A DNA stretch of 64,000 bases from Perkinsus marinus ATCC 50983 (taxonomy: Eukaryota > Perkinsozoa > Perkinsida > Perkinsidae), in the NCBI RefSeq assembly GCF_000006405.1, contig NW_003216064.1, forward strand, positions 311,009-375,008, read 5' to 3'. The notes beneath the pieces were generated by a model. It was given only the letters and a program-made list of their open reading frames with translations, was not told where the DNA came from and searched no databases. How positions within the stretch are numbered: position 1 is the first letter of the stretch; each line of letters starts with the position of its first letter. The position numbers and the translations under genes were made by a program. Positions 4,888 to 60,176 of this stretch are shown piece by piece.

Positions 4888-6336
4888 CTATTCAAGAGCA
4901 ATATGCACCGCTTTTAGTGCATCTACTTCCCCGATACCAGATAGGTTCAACCTATTGGGTATACCGGACGTCCTGGATTTCATGATAATGTCCGTAATAT
5001 TCTGACCAGTTAAACCAAGAGTACCGAGCAGAGCAGCGATACCAGCAACTGTAGGGGTCGACATCGACGTACCACTCTTAGTTCCGTACGACCCTACGGG
5101 TATCGTCGAGTTTATATCTACACCTGGAGCGGCAATTTTCGTCACGGAGCCAAGGTTAGACCACGATGGAATAGAGACGTTTGAGTCTGGAATGGAAGTA
5201 CTGGCAGCAACACAGATCATAGACGAAATGTTCTTCGCCAAGGAGCAGGCATAGTACGGTTCTTTATCTAGGGTCAATCCCTCATTACCAGCTGCAACGA
5301 TGGTGACCTGTCCGGCCGCAGCAGCGTTCTTGAACGCTGTTTCGACGATCTTATAGTAGTGATGCCATCCATATGAATGAGAGGACACTGCCGCTCCATG
5401 CGCAATTGAATAGTTTAGAGCCATTAGTGCACTACTGGTTAGACCAATTCCGAAGGAGTTGAAGATCTTCAATATCATTAGCTTCACATTAGGGATCGAC
5501 CCGTTAACGTTCGCCACTCCTGCAATACCAATGCTGTTGTTAGTCTGGGCGGCCGCGATACCAGCACAGTGAGTACCGTGACTATAACCATCAGTTACAT
5601 TGGTGTTATTGTTAACATAGTTGTAGCCGATGGAGCCATCAGCTGGGTTCCTCCAGAATTGATGAATCAGATCCGGATGAGTCATGTCGACACCGGAGTC
5701 GATGATGGCGAGCACAATATTCTTCAACTCTGGTTTGGCCGAGCGAGCGGCTCTCCAGGCAGCTCCCATTCGAATGACTTCGAGGTTACGCTGGCAGGAA
5801 GATATGGGGTCGTTGGTACCAAGAATAGGATTGCCACCAGTACAGTTGGATAGATCCCGTACCTTAGTCGGTGCAGGGATAGGACTCAGTGTGACCTCCG
5901 AATCCGGCTCACAATCAAAGTCGATGCCCAAGATATCTTCAGCTTTCCTCAAGTAGTTCAGAATTTCGCTGTGGCCAACTGAGCATGTGGACTCAACAAT
6001 TTGGATCCCCACGGCAGTCAAGTCATAGACCATACCATCTTGTTCGAAGCATCTCTCACACTTACGGTCATCTTGGGTGAGGATGTGGGCCCTCACACGA
6101 GTGGCAGCCATGGCCTGTGCCATCATATTAGGTACAAGACGGATGTCGAGTGGAGCGCCTCGATGAGATACCCTCACCAATGTGCGGTGGGAGGTACCTT
6201 CACCCAAGCTCATGACGTATACGAGCACCGTCGATAAGAATGCCGAACGTGCGAGCATGATGCTGATCAACAACAACTGATGTAGTGTCCTCTTGATCAA
6301 AGCAATCACCACTGGAGAACAACTCAACACTGACAT
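4888..6336 (-). CDS. subtilisin-like serine protease 1 (S8 family)
   Basis: A secreted S8 serine endopeptidase. All catalytic elements are visible in order: Asp in VLAIIDSGVDMTHPD, His in GYSHGTHCAGIAAA, the oxyanion Asn in VAAGNEG, and Ser in SGTSMSTPTVAGIAALL. A propeptide of roughly 130-150 residues with several cysteines precedes the domain. The frame opens at 6336, but an in-frame ATG at 6258 starts MLARSAFLSTVLVYVMSLGE, a much better signal peptide, so I prefer 6258 as the true start. The product then has about 456 residues and no introns. Abundant extracellular subtilisins are known in Perkinsus; the role here is inferred. A paralogous but divergent protease lies at 29842-31221. Confidence 0.9.
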   Translation of the reverse strand: MSVLSCSPVVIALIKRTLHQLLLISIMLARSAFLSTVLVYVMSLGEGTSHRTLVRVSHRGAPLDIRLVPNMMAQAMAATRVRAHILTQDDRKCERCFEQDGMVYDLTAVGIQIVESTCSVGHSEILNYLRKAEDILGIDFDCEPDSEVTLSPIPAPTKVRDLSNCTGGNPILGTNDPISSCQRNLEVIRMGAAWRAARSAKPELKNIVLAIIDSGVDMTHPDLIHQFWRNPADGSIGYNYVNNNTNVTDGYSHGTHCAGIAAAQTNNSIGIAGVANVNGSIPNVKLMILKIFNSFGIGLTSSALMALNYSIAHGAAVSSHSYGWHHYYKIVETAFKNAAAAGQVTIVAAGNEGLTLDKEPYYACSLAKNISSMICVAASTSIPDSNVSIPSWSNLGSVTKIAAPGVDINSTIPVGSYGTKSGTSMSTPTVAGIAALLGTLGLTGQNITDIIMKSRTSGIPNRLNLSGIGEVDALKAVHIALE

Positions 6337-6994
6337 CTGCGCTGAATGATGAGTTAGTCAACACAGTTAGTCACACATGTCTGCCCATCCAAGTGGGGCT
6401 CACTCGGCAAGCTATATAGACTACGAGTTGATAGCTCGGACCTACGAGCCGCAACACAATACCGAAGCGGTACGGTGCGCCTCGTGCTCACGCCGTGAGC
6501 CTACACAGCCTCACGGCGTGAACACATCCAACCTGGATCCGGCTCGGAGGTTTTGAGTGAGAGCATCCGATCATATGTGGATCTGTTCAAATAAGGTACA
6601 TCTCAATCGAGCTGCAGTTCGACTATATGGGTCTTCAAGACCCGGTCTTGTACGACGTCTTCTACATTCCCATAATCTACCCGACGCTGTCGGTTCACGC
6701 TGACGCGAGAAGCATGAGATCGGACGGGCGATCGCACAACATAGGCAACTATTTTTTGCGACAACATGAGTTTGTCGAGGGCTCGCGTTACAAGTCGGCT
6801 TTCCTCTGTATGGTAACCCATATAACAGAGCTATGCGATGAGGTTCTTTACGCGCTTGCTTTTTCTCGCGTTCGCGTGCCTCCTAGAAGGAACTTGGAAT
6901 CCCCTGGGGGCCCGATCCTCAACTCAGTCTCCGGCATACCAAGAAGAAAACGTAGGATGTTATACATACACTTCGACCAATAGGATCACTCCGA
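6337..6994. other. intergenic stretch containing a hairpin
   Basis: About 650 bp between the start of subtilisin 1 and the stop of the first hydrolase gene. It should contain the protease promoter. The one clear structure is the perfect inverted repeat at 6488-6521. Plus-strand frames here have no support. Confidence 0.5.
6488..6521. repeat. perfect 12-bp inverted repeat (hairpin)
   Basis: The arm TCACGCCGTGAG (6488-6499) is followed by a 10-nt loop and the exact reverse complement CTCACGGCGTGA (6510-6521). It lies 152-230 bp upstream of the two possible subtilisin starts. It could be a protein-binding site or an RNA hairpin; no family is recognised. Confidence 0.7.
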
Positions 6995-20771: not shown

Positions 20772-21524
20772 CTACCTCAAAGAGAAGGCCCTGTCTAGGA
20801 TATGCCTATACTCAGCGTCGACTCTGTCTAGGATATGCCTATATTGAGCGTTGACTCTGTCTAGGATATGCCTAAACTGAGCGTTGCCTCTGTCTAGGAT
20901 ATGCCTATACTGAGCGTTGACTCTGTCTAGGATATGCCTATACTGAGCGTTGACTCTGTCTAGGATATGCCTATACTGAGCGTTGACTCTGTCTAGGATA
21001 TGCCTATACTGAGCGTCGACTCTGTCTAGGATATGCCTATACTGAGCGTTGACTCTGTCTAGGATATGCCTATACTGAGCGTTGACTCTGTCTAGGATAT
21101 GCCTATACTGAGCGTTGACTCTGTCTAGGATATGCCTATACTGAGCGTTGACTCTGTCTAGGATATGCCTATACTGAGCGTTGCCTCTGTCTAGGATATG
21201 CCTATACTGAGCGTCGACTCTGTCTAGGATATGCCTATACTGAGCGTTGACTCTGTCTAGGATATGCCTATACTGAGCGTTGACTCTGTCTAGGATATGC
21301 CTATACTGAGCGTCGACTCTGTCTAGGATATGCCTATACTGAGCGTTGACTCTGTCTAGGATATGCCTATACTGAGCGTTGACTCTGTCTAGGATATGCC
21401 TATACTGAGCGTTGACTCTGTCTAGGATATGCCTATACTGAGCGTTGACTTTGTCTAGGATATGCCTAAGCTGAGCATTGACTCTATCTAGCCTTGACCC
21501 CCGTTGTTCTGCTAGTCTATCCAA
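20772..21524 (-). CDS. 11-residue tandem-repeat protein (250 aa)
   Basis: A 250-residue frame: an 11-residue head, 21 consecutive copies of the consensus LDRVNAQYRHI, and an 8-residue tail before TAG. Variation is restricted: V-N becomes V-D or G-N, Tyr becomes Leu or Phe, Gln becomes Glu once, Arg becomes Lys once. Only this frame is open through the array; the plus strand is stopped in each unit. Hydrophobic Leu1, Val4, Tyr8 and Ile11 recur every 11 residues, the spacing of hendecad (right-handed) coiled coils, so a long helical rod is plausible. Expression is not proven. It may be one exon of a larger gene or an open minisatellite. No family recognised. Confidence 0.55.
   Translation of the reverse strand: MDRLAEQRGSRLDRVNAQLRHILDKVNAQYRHILDRVNAQYRHILDRVNAQYRHILDRVNAQYRHILDRVDAQYRHILDRVNAQYRHILDRVNAQYRHILDRVDAQYRHILDRGNAQYRHILDRVNAQYRHILDRVNAQYRHILDRVNAQYRHILDRVNAQYRHILDRVDAQYRHILDRVNAQYRHILDRVNAQYRHILDRVNAQYRHILDRGNAQFRHILDRVNAQYRHILDRVDAEYRHILDRAFSLR
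20799..21491 (-). repeat. 33-bp minisatellite, 21 units
   Basis: Twenty-one head-to-tail 33-bp units with no spacers, plus-strand core GTCTAGGATATGCCTATACT. Inner units are nearly identical; edge units diverge (AAACTGAGC near 20873, AAGCTGAGC near 21468), typical of unequal crossing-over or replication slippage. The unit length keeps the minus-strand reading frame. Confidence 0.95.
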
Positions 21525-22585: not shown

Positions 22586-22590
22586 GGCGG
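22586..22590. repeat. 5-bp target-site duplication (left)
   Basis: GGCGG immediately before the 5' LTR; the same five bases follow the 3' LTR at 28500-28504. Confidence 0.9.
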
Positions 22591-22666
22591 TGTGACGTAT
22601 TTTGACGTATTTACTAGAGTATTGAGATCGTGACGCACGTAGCATTATTGGGCGTGCGCTTTTCCT

Positions 22667-22673
22667 TATATAG
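22667..22673 (+). promoter_or_regulatory. TATA-like box in 5' LTR
   Basis: TATATAG lies 64 nt before the SL-like sequence; the same box is in the 3' LTR (28341-28347). Use of TATA-like elements by this lineage is not established, so the role is inferred from position. Confidence 0.4.
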
Positions 22674-22730
22674 CGAATCGTATGGTTCTTAGAACCTACG
22701 TTTCTCGTTGTAAGTCTCTAGTATTGAGGT

Positions 22731-22752
22731 TCCGTAGCCATCTTGGCTCAAG
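22731..22752 (+). promoter_or_regulatory. spliced-leader-like 22-mer in 5' LTR
   Basis: Reads TCCGTAGCCATCTTGGCTCA followed by AG. It matches the dinoflagellate-type spliced leader (D-CCGTAGCCATTTTGGCTCAAG) over all 22 positions except C for T at position 12, a variant I recall being reported for Perkinsus leaders. It is followed by AT rather than a GT donor, so this is a mature leader joined to downstream sequence, not an SL RNA gene. Confidence 0.9.
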
Positions 22753-22760
22753 ATCTTAGT

Positions 22761-22833
22761 GTCGTGTTATTGGTCACCGCATGTCGGCGAGGAGTTCCTC
22801 AACACCGGCGGAGAGTTATGCGACAAATTGGTG
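22761..22833 (+). repeat. source copy of the 73-bp duplication (LTR tail plus start of primer site)
   Basis: This segment runs from GTCGTGTTAT in the LTR to AATTGGTG just past the LTR end. An exact second copy is at 23667-23739. Confidence 0.9.
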
Positions 22834-23761
22834 GTCGATGCAGGGCCTACGGGACGTGCAAGCAGAGCAGCCCGATGATGAGCGAGTGTCCGAGAAAGTC
22901 TGCGACATAGTAGACGGACTCCTAGCTGTTGATGATAAGGTGAGAGCACGGGCTAAGATCGGGGTTTTGATACGTAAGGGGGCCGTTGCATTAAAAGAGT
23001 TTTTCCGAGAGGTCGCGAGGGATGCGAATGTGACGAACTATAGTGATGTTTGGCGTTCGATATATGCGGCTTTATATTGGTGCACTTTGGATAGTGGCCT
23101 GACAGAGGGAGCTCAGGAGTTAGCGTACTGTTTGAGCTTGGGAGTGATGAGATCACTAGTGAAAATATCAGCTCTTGATGCGTGCCTCACGGAAAGAAAT
23201 CCGGTGATGCTCACACGATTGTTGGTGGTCTTGGGCATCGAGGGGAGTGATTCAAAGAATAAAATGACTCCTGCTCATCGGATCGAGAATAAGATAGAGT
23301 TGAATAGTCTCCCTCTGGTAGAAGCTGCTCCTTGGGACGTAGACGGGAAGAATGCTGATAATGTGTTTATGACGTACGATATATTTAAGAAGAGAGTTCG
23401 ATCGGCTTGTAAGAGTTATCAGTTGAAGGGTCGGTTGGCGTGTTACTATTTGAGCAGAAATTTGGTCGGTAGAGCCAAAACGTACTGCCAAGAGCAGTTG
23501 GGGATGTTGACGGAATTGGAAGATGATGGTTTGCAAGGGGATATTTCCGAAATGTTGTGGGAGCGATTAGATGAGAAATTTGCGAATTTATGGAGTGAAG
23601 GGCGAGCTGTGAGTAATTTCGGGAAAGTTTTCAAGAAGAGTGATGAAAGCGTCCTTTCCTTCTGTGGTCGTGTTATTGGTCACCGCATGTCGGCGAGGAG
23701 TTCCTCAACACCGGCGGAGAGTTATGCGACAAATTGGTGCAGATGCAGCAGAGTTTTATGA
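22781..23761 (+). CDS. retrotransposon Gag-like protein (326-codon frame)
   Basis: The start ATG lies inside the 5' LTR, 28 nt after the SL-like sequence. After about 15 LTR-encoded residues the product becomes a helical, charged Gag-type protein, for example VRARAKIGVLIRKGAVALKE and, near the end, LWSEGRAVSNFGKVFKKSDE. The frame runs into the internal 73-bp duplication at 23667 and stops at 23761. The zinc knuckle expected at the end of Gag is instead in the next frame. Gag would form the virus-like particle that packages element RNA. The frame break looks secondary: the inserted length is 73, one more than a multiple of three. Confidence 0.8.
   Translation: MSARSSSTPAESYATNWWSMQGLRDVQAEQPDDERVSEKVCDIVDGLLAVDDKVRARAKIGVLIRKGAVALKEFFREVARDANVTNYSDVWRSIYAALYWCTLDSGLTEGAQELAYCLSLGVMRSLVKISALDACLTERNPVMLTRLLVVLGIEGSDSKNKMTPAHRIENKIELNSLPLVEAAPWDVDGKNADNVFMTYDIFKKRVRSACKSYQLKGRLACYYLSRNLVGRAKTYCQEQLGMLTELEDDGLQGDISEMLWERLDEKFANLWSEGRAVSNFGKVFKKSDESVLSFCGRVIGHRMSARSSSTPAESYATNWCRCSRVL
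22829..22845 (+). other. putative tRNA primer-binding site
   Basis: TGGTGGTCGATGCAGGG begins three bases after the 5' LTR. The leading TGG is the complement of a tRNA CCA end, as expected for a minus-strand primer site. The tRNA species was not identified. Confidence 0.55.
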
Positions 23762-26700
23762 GAAAGATTATAAAGATTCGAAGTCCTTAGTCACGGGGAA
23801 AGGTGCTGGCAAAGGGCAAAGGCCAGGATCGATCCGCCGTGAGGGTGATTCTAAACCACCTCAACTGAAAGCGAGTCAGGGCCTCAACGGTGCGAAAGGA
23901 TCATTACAATGTTATAATTGTAGAGGATTCGGGCATATAGCTCGTGATTGTCCGAAGAAAAATCCCAGCTCACAAATTGAGAAATCTAACAGAGTCCAGG
24001 GTGCGGGCACTACGAGCGGTGAGGCGAAACCGAACAACTCCACCAGTCGAGGAGCGATGGCAGTCGACATCGATCAGGGATTGATTGATATTGCATCTGT
24101 TGCCGAACAGGAGCCGAAGGAGTTGAAGTCTCTTACGTTAGCAACGGCATGTCCCCCTAGTACATGTAAAGTGACTCTGGCAGGAGAAGTCTTCGACGCG
24201 CTTGTGGATAGCGGATCGGCTTTGGCGTTGATCAATAGGGATCTCGCCAAGCGTTTGAAGTTGAGTAGAAGAATTATTGCTCCTCTGCGAGCGGTGTTTG
24301 CCAACAAGCAAACACAATTGATCACGGAAGAGACGATCGTTCCGTGTCGAGTAGGAGATAAAGAACTGATTCTCCCATTCTTGATAGCAAATGGGCTATC
24401 ATACGACCTCATCTTAGGAAGGTCGGCGTTGCGCTTGTGCGGTGCGAAGCTCGTTTACAGATTTGATGATGAGACAGCCTTGGAAAAGATCCAATCGGAG
24501 TTATTGGAAGCATCCAAGGAGTCAGAGAGCTCGCGTAATAGGACGGTACCGTCTCTCAATGAGGAGGACGGGTCCTACGAGTTCTCGGAGATATCCTCAG
24601 TGGATATTATCAATCCAGAGAGGATTGATTGCAGTGGTGTGCATCTTAATGGTAAGATAGCATGCTCAGTCTCAGGCGATGATCTGGCGGTTACTGAAGC
24701 ACCAGATTCTGAAATAGAGGAGTACAGCTCGGCGGAGTCTGAGTTGGAATCTCCTAGTTGGACACCGACAAGCATCCCCAGTAGAGATAGTAAGTGCGAG
24801 TGGGAGGATTGCGACTCGATTGAGCAGTGTCTTGAGAAGCTTTGTGGTTTTGGATGGAGACCAATAAAGAATGCGGAAGCTTACAAGATGCGATTGGTTA
24901 AATTAGAAACCGATGATGTTCGCGATACGCCGTCGCAGGAGTATCGATTTCTAGTAGATTGGGAGGAAGTCGAGAGTGCGAATGAGCGACGGTCGTGGTC
25001 TCCGAATAGATTGTTGCAGAAGCTCAGTCCTGAGCAGTATCAGCTCTGGCTAGATGAGCTAAAAATGTATGAAGATCGCCATTGGTGGGAGAGAGTATCT
25101 GACCAGGAAGTGCCGAGGGATAGGGCCACGGCATTTCCAATAATATCGATGGCTAAATCCACGAGGATTAGGCCAGTTGTAGATGCCAGGGTACTCAATT
25201 TACGAGCACCAGTCGCATCGAGCCGTAAGCACAGCATCGGTCGTATTACTCAGCAGTTACGCTCCATCATTACGCCGTCTGTGGAGATTCGCCAATACGA
25301 TTTGGCGAAGGCCTTTTATAGGCTCGCCATTATGAGGCCAGTCTATATCAATTATGGTCGTGGTATAACAATGAGGAGCTCTCGCCTGACCTTCGGGCTG
25401 GCGATAGGCCCAGGGGCCTTAGAGCACTCATTGGACCTACTATGGAGTATACTCGACCGATTCCACCCTCTGGTGCGTACTCTCAGAATGATGGACGATA
25501 TCGTTGTGGTGTCGTCAAAAGTACACTTGGATGAGTTCGAGGCTACACTCTATAAATTGTTGGATTTGGTGGGGTTCGACATTCCGCAGGAGAAGAAAGC
25601 TGTATGGAGTGATGAGTATTCCAAGTGGCTGGGTGCTTACTGGGCGTGGGACGGCTGTGTCTTACGCATGAAGCCACCGGTGATTAACTTTACGGTTTCC
25701 ACTACTAAACGTGAGGTCTTTCGTCAAGCAGGTCGCTTCCTAGATCTCTGTCAATCGTTAGAAGAAGTACAAGCTCGAGCGCATTGTGATTGGGCCCGTC
25801 GAGTGAGTGGGTCTCAGAGTATAGCTTTCGATGATGTGTTGCCTCCTGACATTCAGAAGGAGGTGAATAAGCATTTAAATGCTGCTGTAGAATCATGGGC
25901 ACGCATTCCTCTCGAGGTGCCCTTATTTTCTACTGTTAAGTCTCTCGTGATAGGGAATGATGCCTCGAACTGTGGGTTTGCATCTGTATGGTATTCTACC
26001 GTACTTTCTGACACCACAGAAGCTGCGATTCCGCATATGATGATCCTTTGTGCGCGTTCTCACCTGTTCGCTACCAGTGCTCGTTTCTGGCATGCAAATA
26101 GGAGGGAACTTTTCTGTCTGAGCAGCTCTCTGGGGCAGTTTTGTTCTTCATTGCTCGATGGTTTCTTCCCACAGTTGGAGTCAGTCGTTCTCTCGAGTGA
26201 TTCTACTACGGCGATCCGACGACTAGATGATCGCCCTCATAAGATGAAAGGAGTAGAGTGGTTATCTACTTCTCGATTACGTGAGTGCTGTCTTGATATG
26301 TTAAGACTTGTTCGTTCGTATAAGGTCTCTGTTCGCTTCACTCATGTATCAGCTGATCGAAATGCTCAACCAGATTTGCTCTCGAGGATAGATCAAGATA
26401 TTCCTGCGAGAGACATTCGAAAACTTCCATCTGTCGTTGAGTCTCATTCAGAATGCTGTACAATCTCATTATCTACTATTGATAATCTGCCTACTTATAG
26501 ACGCTTTATCCTGCTGAATAAGTGTTTTCAGGGATGGCGTCATGAACATATTAACAATTCTGATGACTACTTATTGAGGTTCATCCAATCTCAGCAGCAA
26601 CGTGATGACATGGCTGCTGCTACTTTCCGTGTATTGAGTAGTAATGTATCTGTTCTTCACGATGAACCTATTCGTATCCAAAAGTATGCGCAACATATGA

Positions 26701-28238
26701 TGATCGTTAATGGTCTACTTTGTAAGATTTCAACTAAGACTAGTACTAAGTACTATGATGATTCTCCTAAAATAGTTCTACCACGAAATGCTTGTGCTCC
26801 GTTATTCATTAAAGAGATTATTCTCTATTTTCATAGATTACATGGGCACATTGGTATCAATAATACTTATCGATTAATAATGTCGAATTTCTGGTGGCCC
26901 AAGGCTCGTTCTGATGTTAAACGTATTGTTAAGTCTTGTGAGGCCTGCCAGTTTACTAGATTTCCTAGAGTCGATAAGTCAGCTGCCTCTCATTGGTTTT
27001 GTCCCTCTAGAGCTTTCGAGACTGTCGGAGTGGATTTATTAGGTCCACTCATTGCTGCTAAACGTAATGAGAGGTATGTCATGTCGATTACATGTTTGCT
27101 GACAAAATTCTGTCTTTTCTTCGTGATGACGAAGATATCTGCTAGTGAGCTTTGTAGGGTATTCGAGACTGAATTCCTTCTGAAGTATTCATGCCCTCGA
27201 ACGGTTATTTCTGACAATGGAATACAGTTTGTGAAGAGTCTCGACTTCAGCAGCCTATTATCACTATATCATGTGAGACATGTCTGTATTCCAGTATATC
27301 ACGCAGCGAGTGGTGGCTTCTATGAGAGAGGCCATGCCGTGGTGAATATGGCCCTACGAGCAGTTCTGGATGAAAATCGTCATGTTACCCTACACGAAGC
27401 CTTAGCCTTCGCTCAAGCTCGAGTCAATAGTACTATCGATCCGGTTCTGGGCGTCAGTCCTCATGAAGCTGTTTATGGTTTCCCACTCCAATCTCCATTA
27501 GCACAATGGGCTTCTTCGCATATTAGTACAGCTCAGGTGAATGATGATGCTATTGAAAGATTCATCGCACACCCTAATAAGAAGCATAAACGTGCTATCA
27601 GATCTGCTTGTGACAAGCTACGGCAGAGGAGGGAGAAGATTATGGAGGACTGGAAGCAGCTTTGGCAAGAGCGTAAGCCGCAGCGGGCTAACGAGCCGAA
27701 CGAGTTCGATGTGGGAGATAAGGTTTTGGTATGGACGCAACCAAGCCACAAACTCGACCGTATGTGGCGGGAAGGTGAGATTATACGCAGGGTCGGTTCC
27801 CGTTGTTATGAAGTCAAGTCTAATGGTAACCGTTCCCAGCTCTACAGTGCTGATCACCTGAAGGCCTTTCTTCCTAATGGAGCTTATGATGACGACGATA
27901 ACCACAAGATCACTGACGATGAGCTTTCTGGAGAGCCTACTCTGTCTACACGTTCACTGAGGCACACTAAATTTATATTGTGGAAAGATCCACAAGATTC
28001 TAAAACTCGTTACGGTAAGATTGAGCGTTGGACAGGTAGCGGTCAGTATATGGTCCACGAGTATCGTCTACTAAATAAACGACTTCTACCACTATGGATT
28101 GGTCCCGATGGTAAGCTATCAACTATCGGTAATGTCGCAGCCTTTGTGAGATTGTCCCCAAGGGATGTCAAGAAGATCAAAGTGGATGAGGTCACAAACA
28201 CCCTACTAGAAGAGAGCTTAGATGAGGTGGCTCCTTGA
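23640..28238 (+). CDS. retrotransposon polyprotein: zinc knuckle, protease, RT, RNase H, integrase
   Basis: A 1532-codon frame. The first ~30 codons lie in or beside the 73-bp duplication and are probably not native. Domains: CCHC zinc knuckle at residues 91-104; retropepsin with Asp-Ser-Gly at about 190; reverse transcriptase from about 500, with RQYDLAKAFYRLAI and the catalytic box RMMDDIVVVSS near 615; RNase H with VIGNDASNCGFASVW near 770; integrase with an HHCC zinc region (LHGHIGINNTYRLI, then CEACQF) near 1065-1105 and the DDE core VDLLGP, ISDNG (about 1190) and GGFYERGHAVVN; then a C-terminal FDVGDKVLVW fold and about 130 residues of unknown role. It copies element RNA to DNA and inserts it. 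No internal stop. It lacks its own clear start, so it was probably expressed as a fusion with Gag. Confidence 0.93.
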   Translation: MMKASFPSVVVLLVTACRRGVPQHRRRVMRQIGADAAEFYEKDYKDSKSLVTGKGAGKGQRPGSIRREGDSKPPQLKASQGLNGAKGSLQCYNCRGFGHIARDCPKKNPSSQIEKSNRVQGAGTTSGEAKPNNSTSRGAMAVDIDQGLIDIASVAEQEPKELKSLTLATACPPSTCKVTLAGEVFDALVDSGSALALINRDLAKRLKLSRRIIAPLRAVFANKQTQLITEETIVPCRVGDKELILPFLIANGLSYDLILGRSALRLCGAKLVYRFDDETALEKIQSELLEASKESESSRNRTVPSLNEEDGSYEFSEISSVDIINPERIDCSGVHLNGKIACSVSGDDLAVTEAPDSEIEEYSSAESELESPSWTPTSIPSRDSKCEWEDCDSIEQCLEKLCGFGWRPIKNAEAYKMRLVKLETDDVRDTPSQEYRFLVDWEEVESANERRSWSPNRLLQKLSPEQYQLWLDELKMYEDRHWWERVSDQEVPRDRATAFPIISMAKSTRIRPVVDARVLNLRAPVASSRKHSIGRITQQLRSIITPSVEIRQYDLAKAFYRLAIMRPVYINYGRGITMRSSRLTFGLAIGPGALEHSLDLLWSILDRFHPLVRTLRMMDDIVVVSSKVHLDEFEATLYKLLDLVGFDIPQEKKAVWSDEYSKWLGAYWAWDGCVLRMKPPVINFTVSTTKREVFRQAGRFLDLCQSLEEVQARAHCDWARRVSGSQSIAFDDVLPPDIQKEVNKHLNAAVESWARIPLEVPLFSTVKSLVIGNDASNCGFASVWYSTVLSDTTEAAIPHMMILCARSHLFATSARFWHANRRELFCLSSSLGQFCSSLLDGFFPQLESVVLSSDSTTAIRRLDDRPHKMKGVEWLSTSRLRECCLDMLRLVRSYKVSVRFTHVSADRNAQPDLLSRIDQDIPARDIRKLPSVVESHSECCTISLSTIDNLPTYRRFILLNKCFQGWRHEHINNSDDYLLRFIQSQQQRDDMAAATFRVLSSNVSVLHDEPIRIQKYAQHMMIVNGLLCKISTKTSTKYYDDSPKIVLPRNACAPLFIKEIILYFHRLHGHIGINNTYRLIMSNFWWPKARSDVKRIVKSCEACQFTRFPRVDKSAASHWFCPSRAFETVGVDLLGPLIAAKRNERYVMSITCLLTKFCLFFVMTKISASELCRVFETEFLLKYSCPRTVISDNGIQFVKSLDFSSLLSLYHVRHVCIPVYHAASGGFYERGHAVVNMALRAVLDENRHVTLHEALAFAQARVNSTIDPVLGVSPHEAVYGFPLQSPLAQWASSHISTAQVNDDAIERFIAHPNKKHKRAIRSACDKLRQRREKIMEDWKQLWQERKPQRANEPNEFDVGDKVLVWTQPSHKLDRMWREGEIIRRVGSRCYEVKSNGNRSQLYSADHLKAFLPNGAYDDDDNHKITDDELSGEPTLSTRSLRHTKFILWKDPQDSKTRYGKIERWTGSGQYMVHEYRLLNKRLLPLWIGPDGKLSTIGNVAAFVRLSPRDVKKIKVDEVTNTLLEESLDEVAP
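23667..23739 (+). repeat. 73-bp internal duplication inside gag
   Basis: Exact copy by eye of 22761-22833, lying 906 bp downstream in the C-terminal part of gag. Both copies are followed within 3 nt by ATGCAG, a possible microhomology. It shifts the reading frame between gag and pol. Confidence 0.9.
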
Positions 28239-28251
28239 GATGTCGCCACCT

Positions 28252-28263
28252 GAGGGGATGAGA
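28252..28263 (+). other. polypurine tract
   Basis: GAGGGGATGAGA ends one base before the 3' LTR, the expected site of plus-strand priming. One T interrupts the purine run. Confidence 0.6.
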
Positions 28264-28264
28264 T

Positions 28265-28499
28265 TGTGACGTATTTTGACGTATTTACTAGAGTATTGAG
28301 ATCGTGACGCACGTAGCATTATTGGGCGTGCGCTTTTCCTTATATAGCGAATCGTATGGTTCTTAGAACCTACGTTTCTCGTTGTAAGTCTCTAGTATTG
28401 AGGTTCCGTAGCCATCTTGGCTCAAGATCTTAGTGTCGTGTTATTGGTCACCGCATGTCGGCGAGGAGTTCCTCAACACCGGCGGAGAGTTATGCGACA
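28265..28499 (+). repeat. 3' LTR (235 bp)
   Basis: Identical by eye to 22591-22825, including the SL-like sequence (28405-28426) and the ATG (28455). That ATG is in frame with the interrupted host ORF downstream. Confidence 0.95.
28405..28426 (+). promoter_or_regulatory. spliced-leader-like 22-mer in 3' LTR
   Basis: Same sequence and position within the LTR as 22731-22752. In the 3' LTR it sits upstream of an ATG that reads into host sequence. Confidence 0.9.
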
Positions 28500-28504
28500 G
28501 GCGG
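28500..28504. repeat. 5-bp target-site duplication (right)
   Basis: GGCGG directly after the 3' LTR, matching 22586-22590. Five-base duplications are usual for Ty3/Gypsy integrases. Confidence 0.9.
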
Positions 28505-28863: not shown

Positions 28864-29841
28864 AACGGATTTGTCACTATATTATAGAGGCTATTCTTCC
28901 GCGCTCAGCAAGAGTTCAATAGTGGGATTGCGTTCATTCCGAGTGATAGGCGGAATCCGAATCCGAATGCGATTTTCAAACTCGGCACTTTAACACGAGA
29001 AAACGCGCTCGTGCTTCAAGCTCGAAAGACCACCTGGAATTCGGTTCATCCGACGACCCGCACCTTGATGCGTGGGAACTCGGAGAAAAAATGTTTCCGA
29101 GTTGGATCTCGGGTTCTTGCACTAAGACTTGAAGCTCGGAGGAGCTGCGCATTTTAATTGGCTCCAGGGTTCATATACGGCCTCAGGTGAGACTCCTGTG
29201 TCACCAGGCCAGAGGCGAGAGTGCTCGCCAACTGAGCTTGTATCGTCTTGGTCGGTGAAACTCTTGCAGAGGTTCTCAAGGCTACAGGAACCCGAGAGGA
29301 TCCTGTTATCCCATGTCGTCACAGATTGATAGGAAACGCGTTAGGCTCGCTTGGGAATTCACGTTAAACACACTCCGGCGGAATACGTTTCTCGCGGTGC
29401 GTCTCCGTTGTGGACTACGGCGAACCCTCCCCACTTTGCTATGAAACTCCGTCGAGCTTGGTAACAGATCGCGTGTTTTGTTTCCTACATTGTATTTTCC
29501 CTCAGCTCTCCACAGTTTTACTCTGATGCGCATTGTGCCGATCCGAATCGGGCCATCCGATGTTGGCACTGAAGTTCAGTGACTGGACGCTCTATTCCGT
29601 CTCCGGCACGGGCATGTCTCGGCTGTTTCTCACATGTCTCTTGGCTCGCCCTTGAGGTTCTCAAGTTGAGGACGAATGACGTGTAGCGGTGCCCCACGTC
29701 TACTCTGATAATGCAAAGTTTTCCTACACTCATCCCTTCCAGATTAGTCTTCCGATTACGTCGACTATCGCCTCTCTAATTCCTCACATCGAATTGCTCT
29801 CTCTCCCTATCCAGTCTTCCCACAGTTCTTCATTCTGTCTG
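28864..29841. other. intergenic stretch upstream of subtilisin 2
   Basis: Nearly 1 kb without a supported gene. It contains the promoter and a pyrimidine-rich leader (29800-29840) before the subtilisin ATG. Short frames only. Confidence 0.45.
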
Positions 29842-31221
29842 ATGCATATCAATACTGCGCTCTCTGTTGCCATCCTGTGCAATGCTGTCATTGCTCAGAA
29901 TAACACCATCGTAAGCCTAAGGTCTGGTATCAATCAGGTTGACATCCGCCATCTGCCCCAAATGCTGAGGGATGCCGGTGAAACCCCTGATCAGAACATT
30001 GTAGCCTTTTTGGAGGCCACTGAGATCACCACTTTGCAAAATGTTAAAACCCAAGTTGTCCAGAGTTCAGCTGCCACCATCGACAGCAACGAGCTTTGCG
30101 ACTTCGTGGCTAAGGCAAGTAGCAAGCTATCTCTGCAATCTCAATGTGCAATGGATGCCACTGGTAAACTTCACCAGGCTTCACCAGGTGAAGCCTTCGG
30201 GGAATACACTAACGATTTGCACGTGAACGATGCCGATGCCATGTATCAGGGGCATCTCGAGTGGATGAAGATGGGTCAGGTGTGGCAGCTTGCTCTTCCG
30301 CATGTTACTCGAAGAATCAAAGTGGCTGTAATAGATTCCGGAGTCGACTGGACTGACCCGGATCTGGCCCCTTTGAAGGGAACGCTGAAGAAGAGAAGCG
30401 GCGGTTACATCGACGGAGGTTGGAATTTCAACACCAACTCGTCGACACTGACGTTCGCGAACACGCATGGTACCAGCGTTAGCAAGATCCTCGCCGCCAA
30501 GAGTAACAACTCGGTTGGTGTCGCTGGGATGGCTCCTAATGTCACCCTAGTACCGCTACAAGTAATGGCAAAGGACTCTCCTCTGAGTCTATCTAAATTC
30601 TTGCTTGCTCTCGAAATGGCCATTGACATTGAGGTAGACATCATATCGGTGTCTCTAGGGTTCACATTGAGCGCGTTTGAAATGGAGTTGCAACATATGC
30701 TGTTCGATGCCCTACGTGCTGTACAACAGAATAACATTATACTCGTTGCTTCCGCAGGCAATGACTTCGAGGAAGCATCTGATGTTTACCCCTGTTGGTA
30801 TGGTGGCCCACTCGGAATGTGTGTCGCTTCCTTGTATGACTACATGTGGGACAATAGGACTGAACCAGTACTCTATCTGGAGTCGAATTATGGTGATAGA
30901 GTTGACGTCGCAGCCTATGGCACTCAACTCGTGGTCGGCCGTGATAAGGCAGGTGAATTGATAAAGTTCAGCGGCACATCCGCTGCTCAACCGCAAGTAG
31001 CTGGTCTGGCTGCTATCCTCCTGTCAATGAATGTCGAACCGTCGTTGGTGAAGCGACTGATCCTGGCTAATGCTGTTCCAGCCGGGCTCGAGATGCCAGA
31101 ATATTTCCCTCAGTATATACGGGGCGGTGCCATTGATCCTCTGAGGACTGTGGAACACGCTATCAGCTTTCTCCCTTCGACACCACGAGGCCTGCGAGGG
31201 AAAGATGCATCCTTCCAATGA
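29842..31221 (+). CDS. subtilisin-like serine protease 2 (S8 family, 459 aa)
   Basis: A secreted S8 endopeptidase. I chose ATG 29842 because it starts MHINTALSVAILCNAVIAQN, a clean signal peptide; the frame is open 51 codons further upstream without coding character. A propeptide of about 130 residues precedes the catalytic domain. Catalytic residues: Asp in KVAVIDSGVDWTDPD, His in NTHGTSVSKILAA, oxyanion Asn in VASAGNDFEEA, Ser in FSGTSAAQPQVAGLAAILL. The blocks around His (HGTSV, not HGTHV) and Ser (GTSAAQP, not GTSMAxP) deviate from the consensus and from subtilisin 1. No introns. It stands alone between the retrotransposon and the Fe-S ATPase. Confidence 0.9.
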   Translation: MHINTALSVAILCNAVIAQNNTIVSLRSGINQVDIRHLPQMLRDAGETPDQNIVAFLEATEITTLQNVKTQVVQSSAATIDSNELCDFVAKASSKLSLQSQCAMDATGKLHQASPGEAFGEYTNDLHVNDADAMYQGHLEWMKMGQVWQLALPHVTRRIKVAVIDSGVDWTDPDLAPLKGTLKKRSGGYIDGGWNFNTNSSTLTFANTHGTSVSKILAAKSNNSVGVAGMAPNVTLVPLQVMAKDSPLSLSKFLLALEMAIDIEVDIISVSLGFTLSAFEMELQHMLFDALRAVQQNNIILVASAGNDFEEASDVYPCWYGGPLGMCVASLYDYMWDNRTEPVLYLESNYGDRVDVAAYGTQLVVGRDKAGELIKFSGTSAAQPQVAGLAAILLSMNVEPSLVKRLILANAVPAGLEMPEYFPQYIRGGAIDPLRTVEHAISFLPSTPRGLRGKDASFQ

Positions 31222-56734: not shown

Positions 56735-57985
56735 TTACAGTAATTTGATCGATTGGTATATACCAAAGGACGAACCAACAGCCGAAACGGCGAGGATGAA
56801 ACCTAACCCTACGATAGCTGCTATCTTTCTTGGGGATGAATCTACACGGCGACCTCGCAAATACGATAATCTCAACCAGAAAATGACGGGGTAAAAGTTG
56901 TGGATGAGCGAGAAGCAAACCGAACCTAGAAGGCCGACAAGACCTTGGAAACTGGGAATGAGGATGGGTATGATGATTGTGAATCCAACCATAAGTGTGC
57001 GTATCAATAGAGACCAGATGATAGGCTTATCTGTAACATTCAGTGCCTTCTCGACGATGCGAAATGATGGGTTCATAAGCACAACATAATGAGTTGCACA
57101 TACAACCAGGATAGATAGAATGGCTAGATACGCGACTACACTTATTTTCTTGCCGGCGGGGGCCATAGCATCAATGACTGTATCATAGGTGAGCAGCTGA
57201 TGACCCCAACCAGCATAGCCTGATGCGGCTATAATACAGTAAAGAATGATGAGAATAATCATCGAAATGTATATGGCTCGACTTCGCTCATGTGGGTGCT
57301 TCATATCATGCAAGATTGTTGTTGAAGTACAGGAAACAGCATAACCAAAAGTCATACTAGCAAAGGTGATACCAAGCCCAACGAAGGACTGCGGCGCGGG
57401 GTCATAGGAATGGACATCTTTCTCATCTACTGCGTGGAGAATACCACCGATGACGATCGAGACTAGGAGGATCACTAATGCAGCCACGCCAACGGTACCA
57501 CTCACATAGCCGACATGTTTCATCGTGCGTAACCACGATAAAGGGAGCATAGCAGCTCCCCAACAGAGTATCCAATACTTCTGTTCCAATTGAGGGAAGA
57601 GTTTCACAGAATTGGAGCCCAACAGGAGCATCAAAAGGCAACCTGTTCCTATCAGAGCGGCGTTCAGGGCGATGGTCACACAGATGAGGCCGATTCGACC
57701 GAAGGCATCACGGCCGATATCTTCATAGTTCTGCGTCGTAGGTGTCATACACAGTCTGAGCAGTTGAACGTAGAGGATACCCAAAATACCAGTTGCAATC
57801 AAAATAAGAAAACCCAAGATGTAGCCAGCCTCTGCCACGGCTCCGGGGATGCTCAGCATGCCAACACCGACACCAGTTAGCAGCATATTGATGACTGCAG
57901 ATCTGGTAGTCTGTTTGCCAGGCTCGACTTCGACTTTGATTGACGATATAGATTCACCTTCCATGATGACGGGGAAACTGAACAT
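56735..57985 (-). CDS. amino-acid transporter, AAAP family (copy 1)
   Basis: A polytopic transporter of the amino acid/auxin permease superfamily (SLC32/36/38-like). The N-terminal block INMLLTGVGVGMLSIPGAVA is the family signature in TM1. About eleven TM segments follow; other landmarks are LLRLCMTPTTQNYEDIGRDA, MKHVGYVSGTVGVAALVIL, TSTTILHDMKHPHERSRAIY and LLGSVCFSLIHNFYPVIFWL. ATG 57985 (MFSFPVIMEGES) or 57964 is the start; the open frame runs further into the N gap but that is not real. Single exon, about 416 residues, ending TAA 56735-56737. It is convergent with the TMEM62-like gene, 121 bp away. Substrate cannot be told from sequence. Confidence 0.92.
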   Translation of the reverse strand: MFSFPVIMEGESISSIKVEVEPGKQTTRSAVINMLLTGVGVGMLSIPGAVAEAGYILGFLILIATGILGILYVQLLRLCMTPTTQNYEDIGRDAFGRIGLICVTIALNAALIGTGCLLMLLLGSNSVKLFPQLEQKYWILCWGAAMLPLSWLRTMKHVGYVSGTVGVAALVILLVSIVIGGILHAVDEKDVHSYDPAPQSFVGLGITFASMTFGYAVSCTSTTILHDMKHPHERSRAIYISMIILIILYCIIAASGYAGWGHQLLTYDTVIDAMAPAGKKISVVAYLAILSILVVCATHYVVLMNPSFRIVEKALNVTDKPIIWSLLIRTLMVGFTIIIPILIPSFQGLVGLLGSVCFSLIHNFYPVIFWLRLSYLRGRRVDSSPRKIAAIVGLGFILAVSAVGSSFGIYQSIKLL

Positions 57986-58019
57986 AGAAGCATATAACGA
58001 TTCTTCACAGTGGTTTTCA

Positions 58020-58119
58020 NNNNNNNNNNNNNNNNNNNNNNNNNNNNNNNNNNNNNNNNNNNNNNNNNNNNNNNNNNNNNNNNNNNNNNNNNNNNNNNNN
58101 NNNNNNNNNNNNNNNNNNN
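58020..58119. other. assembly gap (100 N)
   Basis: Exactly 100 Ns just upstream of transporter copy 1, so its promoter is partly missing. Confidence 1.
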
Positions 58120-58429
58120 AGTGATGACGATCCTCCACATCACAGATTAGAGTGTATGAATGCTAATCAAACGTTTTACGCCGTAAAATTTACGGTATTC
58201 TTCAGCAACGAATCCCCCAATTATCATCAAGATCCCGCACAGATATCGCAAAGCAGTGCACGAATGATGACTTGTGGGATGGTTCGACGAGTTGATGTGA
58301 ATACAAGCATAAACTTCACAGATGAGGTGAAAGGCGTTAATAATCGCCGAGTCGAGTTCAAATGTATTCAACCGGTCAACTGGAAAACTTCCTACAACGT
58401 AGCCGCTATGTCGCAGCCCGATGTTACAA
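58120..58429. other. intergenic stretch between transporter copies 1 and 2
   Basis: About 310 bp from the gap to the stop of copy 2. No ORF supported on either strand. Confidence 0.5.
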
Positions 58430-59686
58430 CTACTTAACTAGAATGGGAATGGCTTCGTATACACCACACACCGAGCCGATAAAAGAGATGATCATAAGAA
58501 GACCAAGTCCTGCTATCTTCATCATCATCATCCATCTGGAGCATTCCCGCGGCTCGCCCAAAAGAACGAGACGAATGTAAAATATCGAGGGATAGAAATT
58601 ATGGATGAGTGAGTAGCAAACAGATCCTAGGAGGCCGACAAGACCTTCGAAGTTGGGCACGAATATAGCAGTGATAGCAGTAAAAGCAACCAAAGTGCTT
58701 CGAGCCAAATATGACTTGAAGAGTTGATGTTCATCAATCCGAAATGCTTCCTCAACGATACGACTGACTGGATTCAACAAGACGGCATAGTGAGTAAGAC
58801 ATAGCACCAAAATGCTAGAAATACATAGATATGCCTCCGGACCATATGTGGGTGTGCCCTCAGTGATAGCGTCAATGATATTATGGAATTTACTCAGTGA
58901 CGCACCCCAACCAATGTAACCTGATAACGAAACTAGGAAGTACACCAATCCAAGAAGGCCAACTCCCCAATAGATGACGCGGCGATGGGCAGAAGCGTCC
59001 TTCATATCATGCAATACAGTGGTACTCGCGCATGTAACGGTATAAGCGAGAGTCATACTCCCGAATGATATCCCCAGTCCGAGAGCACTTTTCGGATACG
59101 GTTCGTAAACAGAATCAATCCCAGCATCATCATCCGCGGCTCGAACAAAACCTGCGTAGATAATGGTCACCATGAGGATGATGACCGAAGCTGTGCCTAC
59201 TGTACCACTGATGTAACCAACATGTTTCATATTACGTAACCAAGAGATAGGCAGGAGTACAATCACCCAGATCAAAACCCAACATTCCAGGCGGATCCCA
59301 TCATAGAGCTTTAAAGAGTTTTCACCGAGAAGTACTACGAGTAAACAACACGAGCCAAGTAAACCACCGTTCACCCCGAACGCGACGGCGACAACACCCC
59401 ATCGACCGAAAGCATCCCTACCAATATGTTCATAGTTTCGGGTATTCGGCTTCATACAGGCACGTAACAGTTGAGTGTAGAGCGTACCAACGATGCCACT
59501 ATAAATAAGGAGAGCGAATCCAAACGCATAACCAGCCCGCGAAACCGCCCCAGGGAGGCTGAGCATACCAACACCGACACCAGTAAGCACAATGTTGGCC
59601 ACAGCATAAAAATTGGACTGCCCACCTGCCGATTCGAACTCAACCTTGAGCGTTTCAATTGACTCCGTCGACTGCGTGGTGAGCAT
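58430..59686 (-). CDS. amino-acid transporter, AAAP family (copy 2)
   Basis: A paralog of copy 1 with the same single-exon structure, 418 residues from ATG 59686 (MLTTQSTESIETLKVEFESA). Signature TM1 block NIVLTGVGVGMLSLPGAVSR; then NYEHIGRDAFGRWGVVAVAF, MKHVGYISGTVGTASVIILM, CASTTVLHDMKDASAHRRVI, and LLGSVCYSLIHNFYPSIFYI. It is complete with no internal stops. The cytosolic N-terminus shows the shared pattern of polar, acidic residues ending in K-V-E. Differences from copy 1 concentrate in the luminal loops and the C-terminal tail (LGEPRECSRWMMMMKIAGLG). Likely plasma-membrane or vacuolar uptake of amino acids. Confidence 0.93.
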   Translation of the reverse strand: MLTTQSTESIETLKVEFESAGGQSNFYAVANIVLTGVGVGMLSLPGAVSRAGYAFGFALLIYSGIVGTLYTQLLRACMKPNTRNYEHIGRDAFGRWGVVAVAFGVNGGLLGSCCLLVVLLGENSLKLYDGIRLECWVLIWVIVLLPISWLRNMKHVGYISGTVGTASVIILMVTIIYAGFVRAADDDAGIDSVYEPYPKSALGLGISFGSMTLAYTVTCASTTVLHDMKDASAHRRVIYWGVGLLGLVYFLVSLSGYIGWGASLSKFHNIIDAITEGTPTYGPEAYLCISSILVLCLTHYAVLLNPVSRIVEEAFRIDEHQLFKSYLARSTLVAFTAITAIFVPNFEGLVGLLGSVCYSLIHNFYPSIFYIRLVLLGEPRECSRWMMMMKIAGLGLLMIISFIGSVCGVYEAIPILVK

Positions 59687-60176
59687 GGTGATGAAAGATC
59701 AACTGTCAGAAAATTGGGAGTGACAACTTCCATACAAGGCACAATGTCGCTCTGACTACTCGTCATATGGGGATCATGCAGCAAACTGTTCGCATACAAA
59801 GACTGCCACACCATTTAAAATACTGTAGTCGATAATAGGTACACTATATCCGGTTGACGACACGATGGTATGGCGAGAAGGAAAGCTGCGTTGCGCCAAT
59901 GGCATATCACTAATTTTCTACCTGATCTCTATGCTCGCTAGACACACTTATTCAAGGCGAAAACCATCCGCAAACCAGCAAACAAAACGTCTAAGCAGTT
60001 CTGATCACGGGAAATCAGATGGAGACATGCTGAGTGTGCTCATTGGGAAGCTCTGCCAGGGAGCCACAGGGCCGTTCAAAGTCTCTAGCAAGACCATTAG
60101 GAATACAGCGATCGGATTGAACCTAAATACCGCTTTGCGAAGCACTCATCATGACTAACACAATAGGATGCGGTGC
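59687..60176. other. intergenic stretch
   Basis: About 490 bp between the start of transporter copy 2 and the stop of the Hint-domain gene, both minus strand. Promoter of copy 2 expected; nothing else recognised. Confidence 0.5.

Follow-up and report, generated by a model that had tools for sequence, protein, structure and literature searches.

Trans-splicing is the established route by which a spliced leader (SL) is added to RNA in Perkinsus. In long terminal repeat (LTR) elements, strong-stop DNA ends at the 5′ end of the RNA and is then transferred to the 3′ LTR. Trans-splicing should break LTR retrotransposition, because it replaces the RNA 5′ end while the first strand transfer needs matching ends. 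Here we describe an LTR retrotransposon of Perkinsus marinus ATCC 50983 that carries a copy of the host leader in both LTRs. The element occupies positions 22591–28499 of a 64,000-nucleotide stretch of contig NW_003216064.1 (positions 311,009 to 375,008, referred to throughout as the window), and related arrangements were sought in 54.5 Mb of genome sequence.

The window element is a Ty3-like LTR retrotransposon. As in Ty3/gypsy-type elements generally, it has paired LTRs with the usual ends, a target duplication, a zinc knuckle, a protease and an H2C2-domain integrase; the elements described here differ in that their LTRs also hold the host SL, shortly upstream of gag. The literature searched, mostly outside subscription journals, yielded no account of an LTR containing a spliced leader, and the available portions of PMC5890265, PMC12014239, PMC9399869, PMC4558846, PMC3942190, PMC7245778, PMC6050394 and PMC11453091 contain no such description. 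Leader-bearing LTRs common to many families are a new variation on Ty3-type LTR retrotransposons. Cer1 of Caenorhabditis elegans is likewise a Ty3-type element in a host with SL trans-splicing, but its 8-kb genomic RNA is apparently not trans-spliced, and its spliced 2.4-kb mRNA occurs with and without SL1 (PMC3315495, in the part available); a genomic RNA that escapes trans-splicing would be the opposite solution. DinoSL retrogenes also hold a genomic copy of a trans-spliced RNA end, with relicts truncated after SL nucleotide (nt) 7, an AG, according to the accessible part of PMC3229502, and one LTR of locus L039 contains the same kind of doublet. Those described here differ in having the full leader, in both LTRs, in 11 families and with a mutational hotspot at SL nt 3.

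Genomic leader copies have been described previously in P. marinus. The available text of Zhang et al. (2011, PMC3101222) reports more than 100 SL1/SL2 copies that lack a recognisable intron, lie in tandem-repeat arrays, differ in the sequence that follows them and yielded no clear RNA product. That text does not recognise the copies as LTRs, and most of them start with T, compared with 32 of 67 SL1-core sites here. We infer that these intronless tandem copies may be LTR pairs of the kind described below.

In the window, the 5′ LTR (22591–22825, + strand) and the 3′ LTR (28265–28499, + strand) are each 235 nt long, with TG...CA ends and 100 % identity. Both contain the 21-mer CCGTAGCCATCTTGGCTCAAG, at 22732–22752 and 28406–28426, and the rest of the window has no copy with three mismatches or fewer (0 expected from 100 shuffles). 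Including one preceding base, the leader copies (TCCGTAGCCATCTTGGCTCAAG in the 5′ LTR) span 22731–22752 and 28405–28426 on the + strand, the former a proposed start of the LTR repeat region (R) and the latter a proposed acceptor of first-strand transfer. The P. marinus leaders are PmaSL1, ACCGTAGCCATCTTGGCTCAAG, and SL2, ACCGTAGCCATCTGGCTCAAG (Zhang et al. 2011, PMC3101222, in the available part). The window copy matches PmaSL1 exactly at nts 2–22, the sole difference being T for A at nt 1. The initial annotation had placed a leader in each of two identical LTRs, between a TATA-like box and the gag ATG and without a following GT donor, and these points were all confirmed. The putative box, TTATATAG (22666–22673, + strand), lies in the unique 3′ region of the LTR (U3) and begins 65 nt before SL nt 1; 28 nt separate the end of the SL from the gag ATG (22781); and the two bases after the SL are AT. 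The C/T mismatch to the leader that it also listed proved to be the Perkinsus form, since PmaSL1 itself has C at this site, and only the nt 1 difference is real.

The window SL was rejected as an SL RNA gene, in which the SL exon is followed by GT and the SL RNA intron, because AT follows it. SL RNA genes of both types with GT after the exon have been reported from P. marinus and are likewise present in the genome analysed here (L003, L004, L021; L075, L076, L104), marked by GTAGATATC or GTAAATATC. In the LTR of family F2 the SL is followed by GT, but without the SL RNA intron. A trans-spliced retrogene relic, which would be a single 5′ scar on an intronless host-gene copy, was also rejected, as the SL lies inside both LTRs and does so in 17 pairs.

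Across the genome, the 21-mer with C or T allowed at one site had 34 matches, with C every time, and its reversed-pattern control had none; at up to three mismatches there were 112 matches versus 1 for the control. Together with the window shuffles, these controls reject a chance origin of the copies. The 16-nt core of SL1 was found at 71 sites and exact SL2 at 36, SL RNA genes included. Apart from the SL RNA genes, the sites fell into 13 clusters of at least two and 10 singletons (122 sites, some counted twice), under a loose clustering that merges F4 with F6, F5a with F5b and F8 with F10. The SL was present in both LTRs of 17 pairs, sorted into 11 families to which we gave the labels F1, F2, F4, F5a, F5b, F6, F7, F8, F9, SA and SC. 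The pairs comprise the window element, 14 of the 19 loci tested (L033, L038–L045, L047–L050 and L054) and two SL2 loci, C190 and C197; none was seen at the other tested loci, L031, L032, L034, L036 and L046. As a separate observation, SL-bearing F2 LTRs lie on opposite strands 4.6 kb apart at C228:8612/13173 and C247:32368/36929, with equal spacing on the two contigs.

The LTRs of the paired families range from about 169 to 416 bp, and the distance from the end of the SL to the end of the LTR from 21 to 138 nt. When the SL was masked and one LTR taken from each of the 11 families, F5a and F5b were the sole aligning pair at E 0.01. Pol identity between families, where BLAST detected any, was 21–33 % (for example F1–F6, 26 % over 1384 aa; F2–F4, 27 % over 1412 aa; F6–F9, 33 % over 1506 aa), and F7 and several F5a pairs had no match. 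The first ATG follows the end of the SL by 19–36 nt in 10 of the 11 families, with F7 at 85 nt. At other SL sites, among 28 loci examined, the gap to the ATG ranged from 11 to 164 nt and some frames were short. A TATA-like box was present upstream of the SL in five of the 28, at differing distances, and a common spacing across families was not found among them.

Within families, nt 3 of the leader changes most often. Sites for this comparison were picked on nts 7–22 alone, counting both LTRs of a pair; 70 of the 71 SL1-core sites were counted and three SL RNA genes removed, leaving 67. Agreement with the leader was 51 % at nt 1, 93 % at nt 2, 52 % at nt 3 and 99 % at each of nts 4–6, and all four bases occurred at nt 3 (C 35, T 22, A 9, G 1). 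Parsimony steps per column were then counted on LTR trees built without the SL columns for seven families. Copies of F1, F2, F6, F7 and SA came from LTR searches and so were not selected on the SL, those of F5b and F9 came from core matches, and the data excluded matches shorter than 80 nt and rows lacking more than three SL positions. Over the seven families, SL nt 3 required 16 steps, and the runner-up among 142 offsets required 8. Restricting the comparison to copies at least 93 % identical gave 9 steps at nt 3 versus 4 at the next column and 1 for all remaining SL nucleotides combined. By family, the nt 3 steps were 6 in F6, 3 in F1, 2 each in F7, F5b and F2 (the last 0 at ≥85 % identity), 1 in F9 and 0 in SA, and the nt 3 value was never reached in 200,000 trials that drew one column at random from each family. 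CpG decay was rejected as a sufficient explanation, since A and G are found too and the other CpG columns change little (mean 0.38 steps outside the SL, n=200, versus 2.29 at nt 3). Nor was the hotspot traced to variant SL RNA genes: the eight SL RNA genes read, which do not include three more in the C102 array or any unassembled variants, all start with ACCG.

Downstream of the hotspot the leader is well preserved in F1, F7, F5b, F9 and SA, in which nts 4–22 took 0–0.06 steps per site versus 0.05–0.17 in the flanks, and eight of the 10 SL-spanning copies of the window family retain nts 4–22. Errors at the strong-stop end of reverse transcription are known from retroviruses. A hot nt 3, nts 1–2 that follow the family and near-fixed nts 4–22 would be expected of an RNA that begins with the SL and on which copying ends at nt 4. 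The pattern thus supports the SL as the 5′ end of R, for which it is a likely start; taken alone, it does not discriminate between trans-splicing and transcription starting at the SL. Incomplete SLs in cDNA are believed to be due to 5′ modifications that impede reverse transcription (Joseph et al. 2010, PMC2868825, in the part available).

A further class of evidence comes from LTRs that are mosaic at the SL. When 88 SL sites were compared pairwise with the two sides treated separately, the cut-offs used gave 183 pairs with matches on both sides, 37 with a match on the upstream side alone and 14 on the downstream side alone, and a few events account for most of the one-sided pairs. The sequences were cut at the SL beforehand, so the frequency of breakage elsewhere is not readable from this comparison. 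Families F5a and F5b (e.g. L038 and L048) have a common U3, 77–81 % identical over about 160 nt in the best matches and extending right up to SL nt 1; beyond the SL they have nothing in common, neither the unique 5′ region (U5) nor the interior, with no protein match between their long frames. The reverse is seen between F9 (L037, L047 and L067) and three copies at L068, which have 64 nt in common at 94 %, beginning with the base next to the SL 3′ end, and share no U3. These L068 copies are tandem and SL-bearing, about 566 bp apart (C281:22640–24780), F9-like after the SL and different upstream. L081 and L102 have 300 nt in common at 94 % after the SL and nothing before it, and L054/L073 is a weaker case (55 nt at 82 %). 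Two sets of one-sided pairs were set aside: L035/L055, which match at a distance from the SL, and the pairs involving L059, a site that retains a short alignment on its downstream side. One-sided joints of this kind would be predicted if the shared leader can pair strong-stop DNA of one family with RNA of another. One of the F9 LTRs, that of L037, lies at C70:375751, 743 bases beyond the end of the window.

Several observations bear on how the leader reached the elements. One F7 copy, L089, carries SL2, while sisters 98–99 % identical to it carry SL1; no further SL1/SL2 family links were found at the sensitivity used. Extra SL tails are joined at the SL 3′ end in five loci: 15 nt in L039, cut after nt 7, an AG; 20 nt (with an AG just before in sisters) plus 7 nt in L082; and 17, 7 and 6 nt in L081, L073 and L090, respectively. 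The L039 doublet is in the 3′ LTR (C176 near 50404); after it, the adjoining LTR sequence is repeated as an inverted fold-back, and the 5′ LTR of this element is normal. The match of L102 to L081, which begins only at about SL nt 3, resembles a copy of an SL-started RNA. Sister elements L044 and L045 (C281 and C39) differ by TGCGAG between the SL and TTTCG; this fits joining at a downstream AG and equally a small deletion between repeated AGs, and was not retained as evidence of trans-splicing. Trans-splicing is the probable source of the element SL. L060 has a decayed second SL (ATCTTGGCTCA) immediately 5′ of the intact one.

From these sequence patterns we infer an RNA 5′ end at the SL, trans-splicing and strand transfer at the SL, in the following sequence of events. 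Transcription would start in U3. The SL would be added by trans-splicing at the AG with which the SL copy of the LTR ends; cis transcription of the SL is a less likely alternative. From a primer near the 5′ LTR, reverse transcription would run through U5 and the SL, halting around SL nt 4 beneath the modified cap. The resulting minus-strand strong-stop DNA would pair with the SL copy in a 3′ LTR, making the SL the 5′ end of R. With each round, nts 4–22 would be rewritten from the RNA and nts 1–2 taken from the old U3, with errors arising at nt 3, and transfer onto the RNA of another family would yield mosaic LTRs that break at the SL. That Ty3-like elements of many families have a genomic RNA beginning with the host SL, with the SL as the start of R, is in our judgement reasonably probable, and the mosaics left this confidence as it was. 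A more specific proposal, about as likely as not, is that a guild of elements took the host SL as R. Their RNA would be trans-spliced onto the AG of the LTR SL, and host SL RNA would thereby rewrite nts 4–22 of both LTRs in each round; nt 3 would mark the point at which a modification near the cap halts reverse transcriptase or causes it to err, and through the leader they share, unrelated families could swap promoters.

The near fixation of nts 4–22 in young copies and the short distance from the SL to the first ATG in 10 of the 11 families would also be expected of a leader mimic encoded in cis, in which transcription starts at the SL of the LTR, the mRNA looks trans-spliced and is capped and translated as such, and selection keeps the SL; the nt 3 hotspot and the mosaics are expected from any RNA 5′ end at the SL. 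Such a mimic is unlikely given that a TATA-like box precedes the SL in only five of 28 loci at differing distances, that nts 1 and 3 are not preserved as it requires, and that one F7 copy has the other SL type. Distinctly less plausible are passive scars, whereby occasional trans-splicing of genomic RNA puts the SL into LTRs by accident, as in retrogenes, with no role in strand transfer. Scars would be less uniform than the complete SL that precedes the first ATG in both LTRs of 11 families, the mosaics break at the SL, and strong-stop DNA ending in the SL could not be extended without homology in the 3′ LTR. Passive scarring does agree with the many integrase matches without a listed SL nearby, the loss of the SL from old copies and the dinoflagellate retrogenes with SL relics described in the available parts of PMC12014239 and PMC3229502. 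A single ancient capture inherited in one lineage, or a DNA-level motif such as a promoter or binding site unrelated to the leader, seems very improbable. The scanned pols are broadly Ty3-like, as common descent would predict (H2C2 above the cut-off in F1, F5a and F6 and below it in F4, F5b and SC; a weak integrase core only in F2), but the SL is exact while the SL-masked LTRs of the families fail to align except F5a/F5b, SL1 and SL2 both occur, and the hotspot lies inside the motif.

A number of results weigh against an SL that serves as the start of R and is renewed by trans-splicing. Only 21 of 150 scored integrase matches had a listed SL on the same strand within 8 kb (six on the opposite strand), and 129 had no listed SL nearby; 150 of 218 candidates were scored against 137 listed SL sites, with 12 weaker sites at up to three mismatches left out, and some SL families fall under the integrase cut-off used. 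Many LTR elements do without an SL or have lost it, and the SL is therefore a trait of some families. F2 and SA, two of the seven families, had no nt 3 hotspot in young copies. When all copies were considered, nts 4–22 had no advantage over the flanks in F6 (0.84 vs 0.74 steps per site) and F2 (1.42 vs 1.09), which are the largest two families; they were unchanged in 14 of 21 spanning rows of F6 and in 9 of 31 rows of F2, the latter including two with an ambiguous one-base gap; dead copies are thus not protected. In the window family, the two C234 copies have lost 8 nt spanning the SL 3′ end. The change from SL1 to SL2 in L089 is one base in one copy, and tandem tails as proof of trans-splicing are weakened because the 6–7-nt tails lack a preceding AG and the L039 doublet adjoins a fold-back. 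F5a and F5b would need more than one template switch, since they have a common U3 without a common Pol and a single transfer keeps U3 and interior together. The longest SL recovered from Perkinsus expressed sequence tags was 13 nt in the available part of PMC2868825, so these stops are not at nt 4. The proposal in the initial annotation that the SL is fixed in the LTRs and used as R homology, beyond a relic, is supported in part, agreeing with the 17 pairs in 11 families, the ATG spacing, the nt 3 hotspot and the one-sided mosaics. Copies lacking the SL, which it would have taken as the mark of a chance passenger, do occur: the two C234 copies have the deletion, and the SL is decayed in many old F2 and F6 copies.

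The window element is flanked by the target-site duplication GGCGG at 22586–22590 and 28500–28504. A putative tRNA primer-binding site starting with TGG, as in most other paired families, closely follows the 5′ LTR (22829–22846, + strand). The gag open frame (22781–23758, + strand, 326 codons) begins within the LTR, had no Pfam match and ends early at a scar. Relative to sister copy L033, which itself lacks about 650 nt of pol, gag is missing some 142 nt, and their place is taken by sequence copied from the LTR 3′ end and primer region (23667–23748, + strand; BLAST length 83), likely a template-switch scar. The pol open frame (23613–28238, + strand) is uninterrupted and contains domain matches on the same strand to a zinc knuckle (23907–23957), a protease (24168–24434), integrase H2C2 (26808–26954) and the integrase core (27051–27302). 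In the profile search zf-CCHC, gag-asp_proteas and Integrase_H2C2 were above their cut-offs and rve was below its own, and the integrase matches prototype foamy virus (PFV) integrase and Ty3 Gag-Pol. At E 1e-3 the window pol had neither an RVT nor an RNase H match; an MDD motif was seen by eye only, and L041, L044, L048 and L042 had weak RVT_1 or RNase H matches. The two LTRs are identical, so the insertion is recent, and a scarred gag in a recent insertion suggests that the window copy was mobilised by proteins supplied from elsewhere. With gag interrupted, the term active in the initial annotation is too strong for this copy.

Elsewhere in the window, direct repeats of 107–173 bp with 92–94 % identity lie upstream of the element (20791–21491). 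Two subtilase-family (Peptidase_S8) frames, at 29680–31218 (+) and 4891–6357 (−), are about 23 kb apart, and two transmembrane amino-acid transporter frames are neighbours at 56738–58162 (−) and 58433–59698 (−). An Rfam scan of the window gave no match.

A leader held in the LTR would be a simple escape from the conflict between trans-splicing and the first strand transfer, and would also make element mRNA resemble host mRNA. If this account is correct, the puzzling genomic leader copies reported in 2011 would be explained, and the LTRs would record in the genome the point at which reverse transcription stops on a capped leader RNA. The leader would also be a shared 22-nt joint for promoter exchange between unrelated element families, and the elements a possible source of the reverse transcription behind SL-marked retrogenes.

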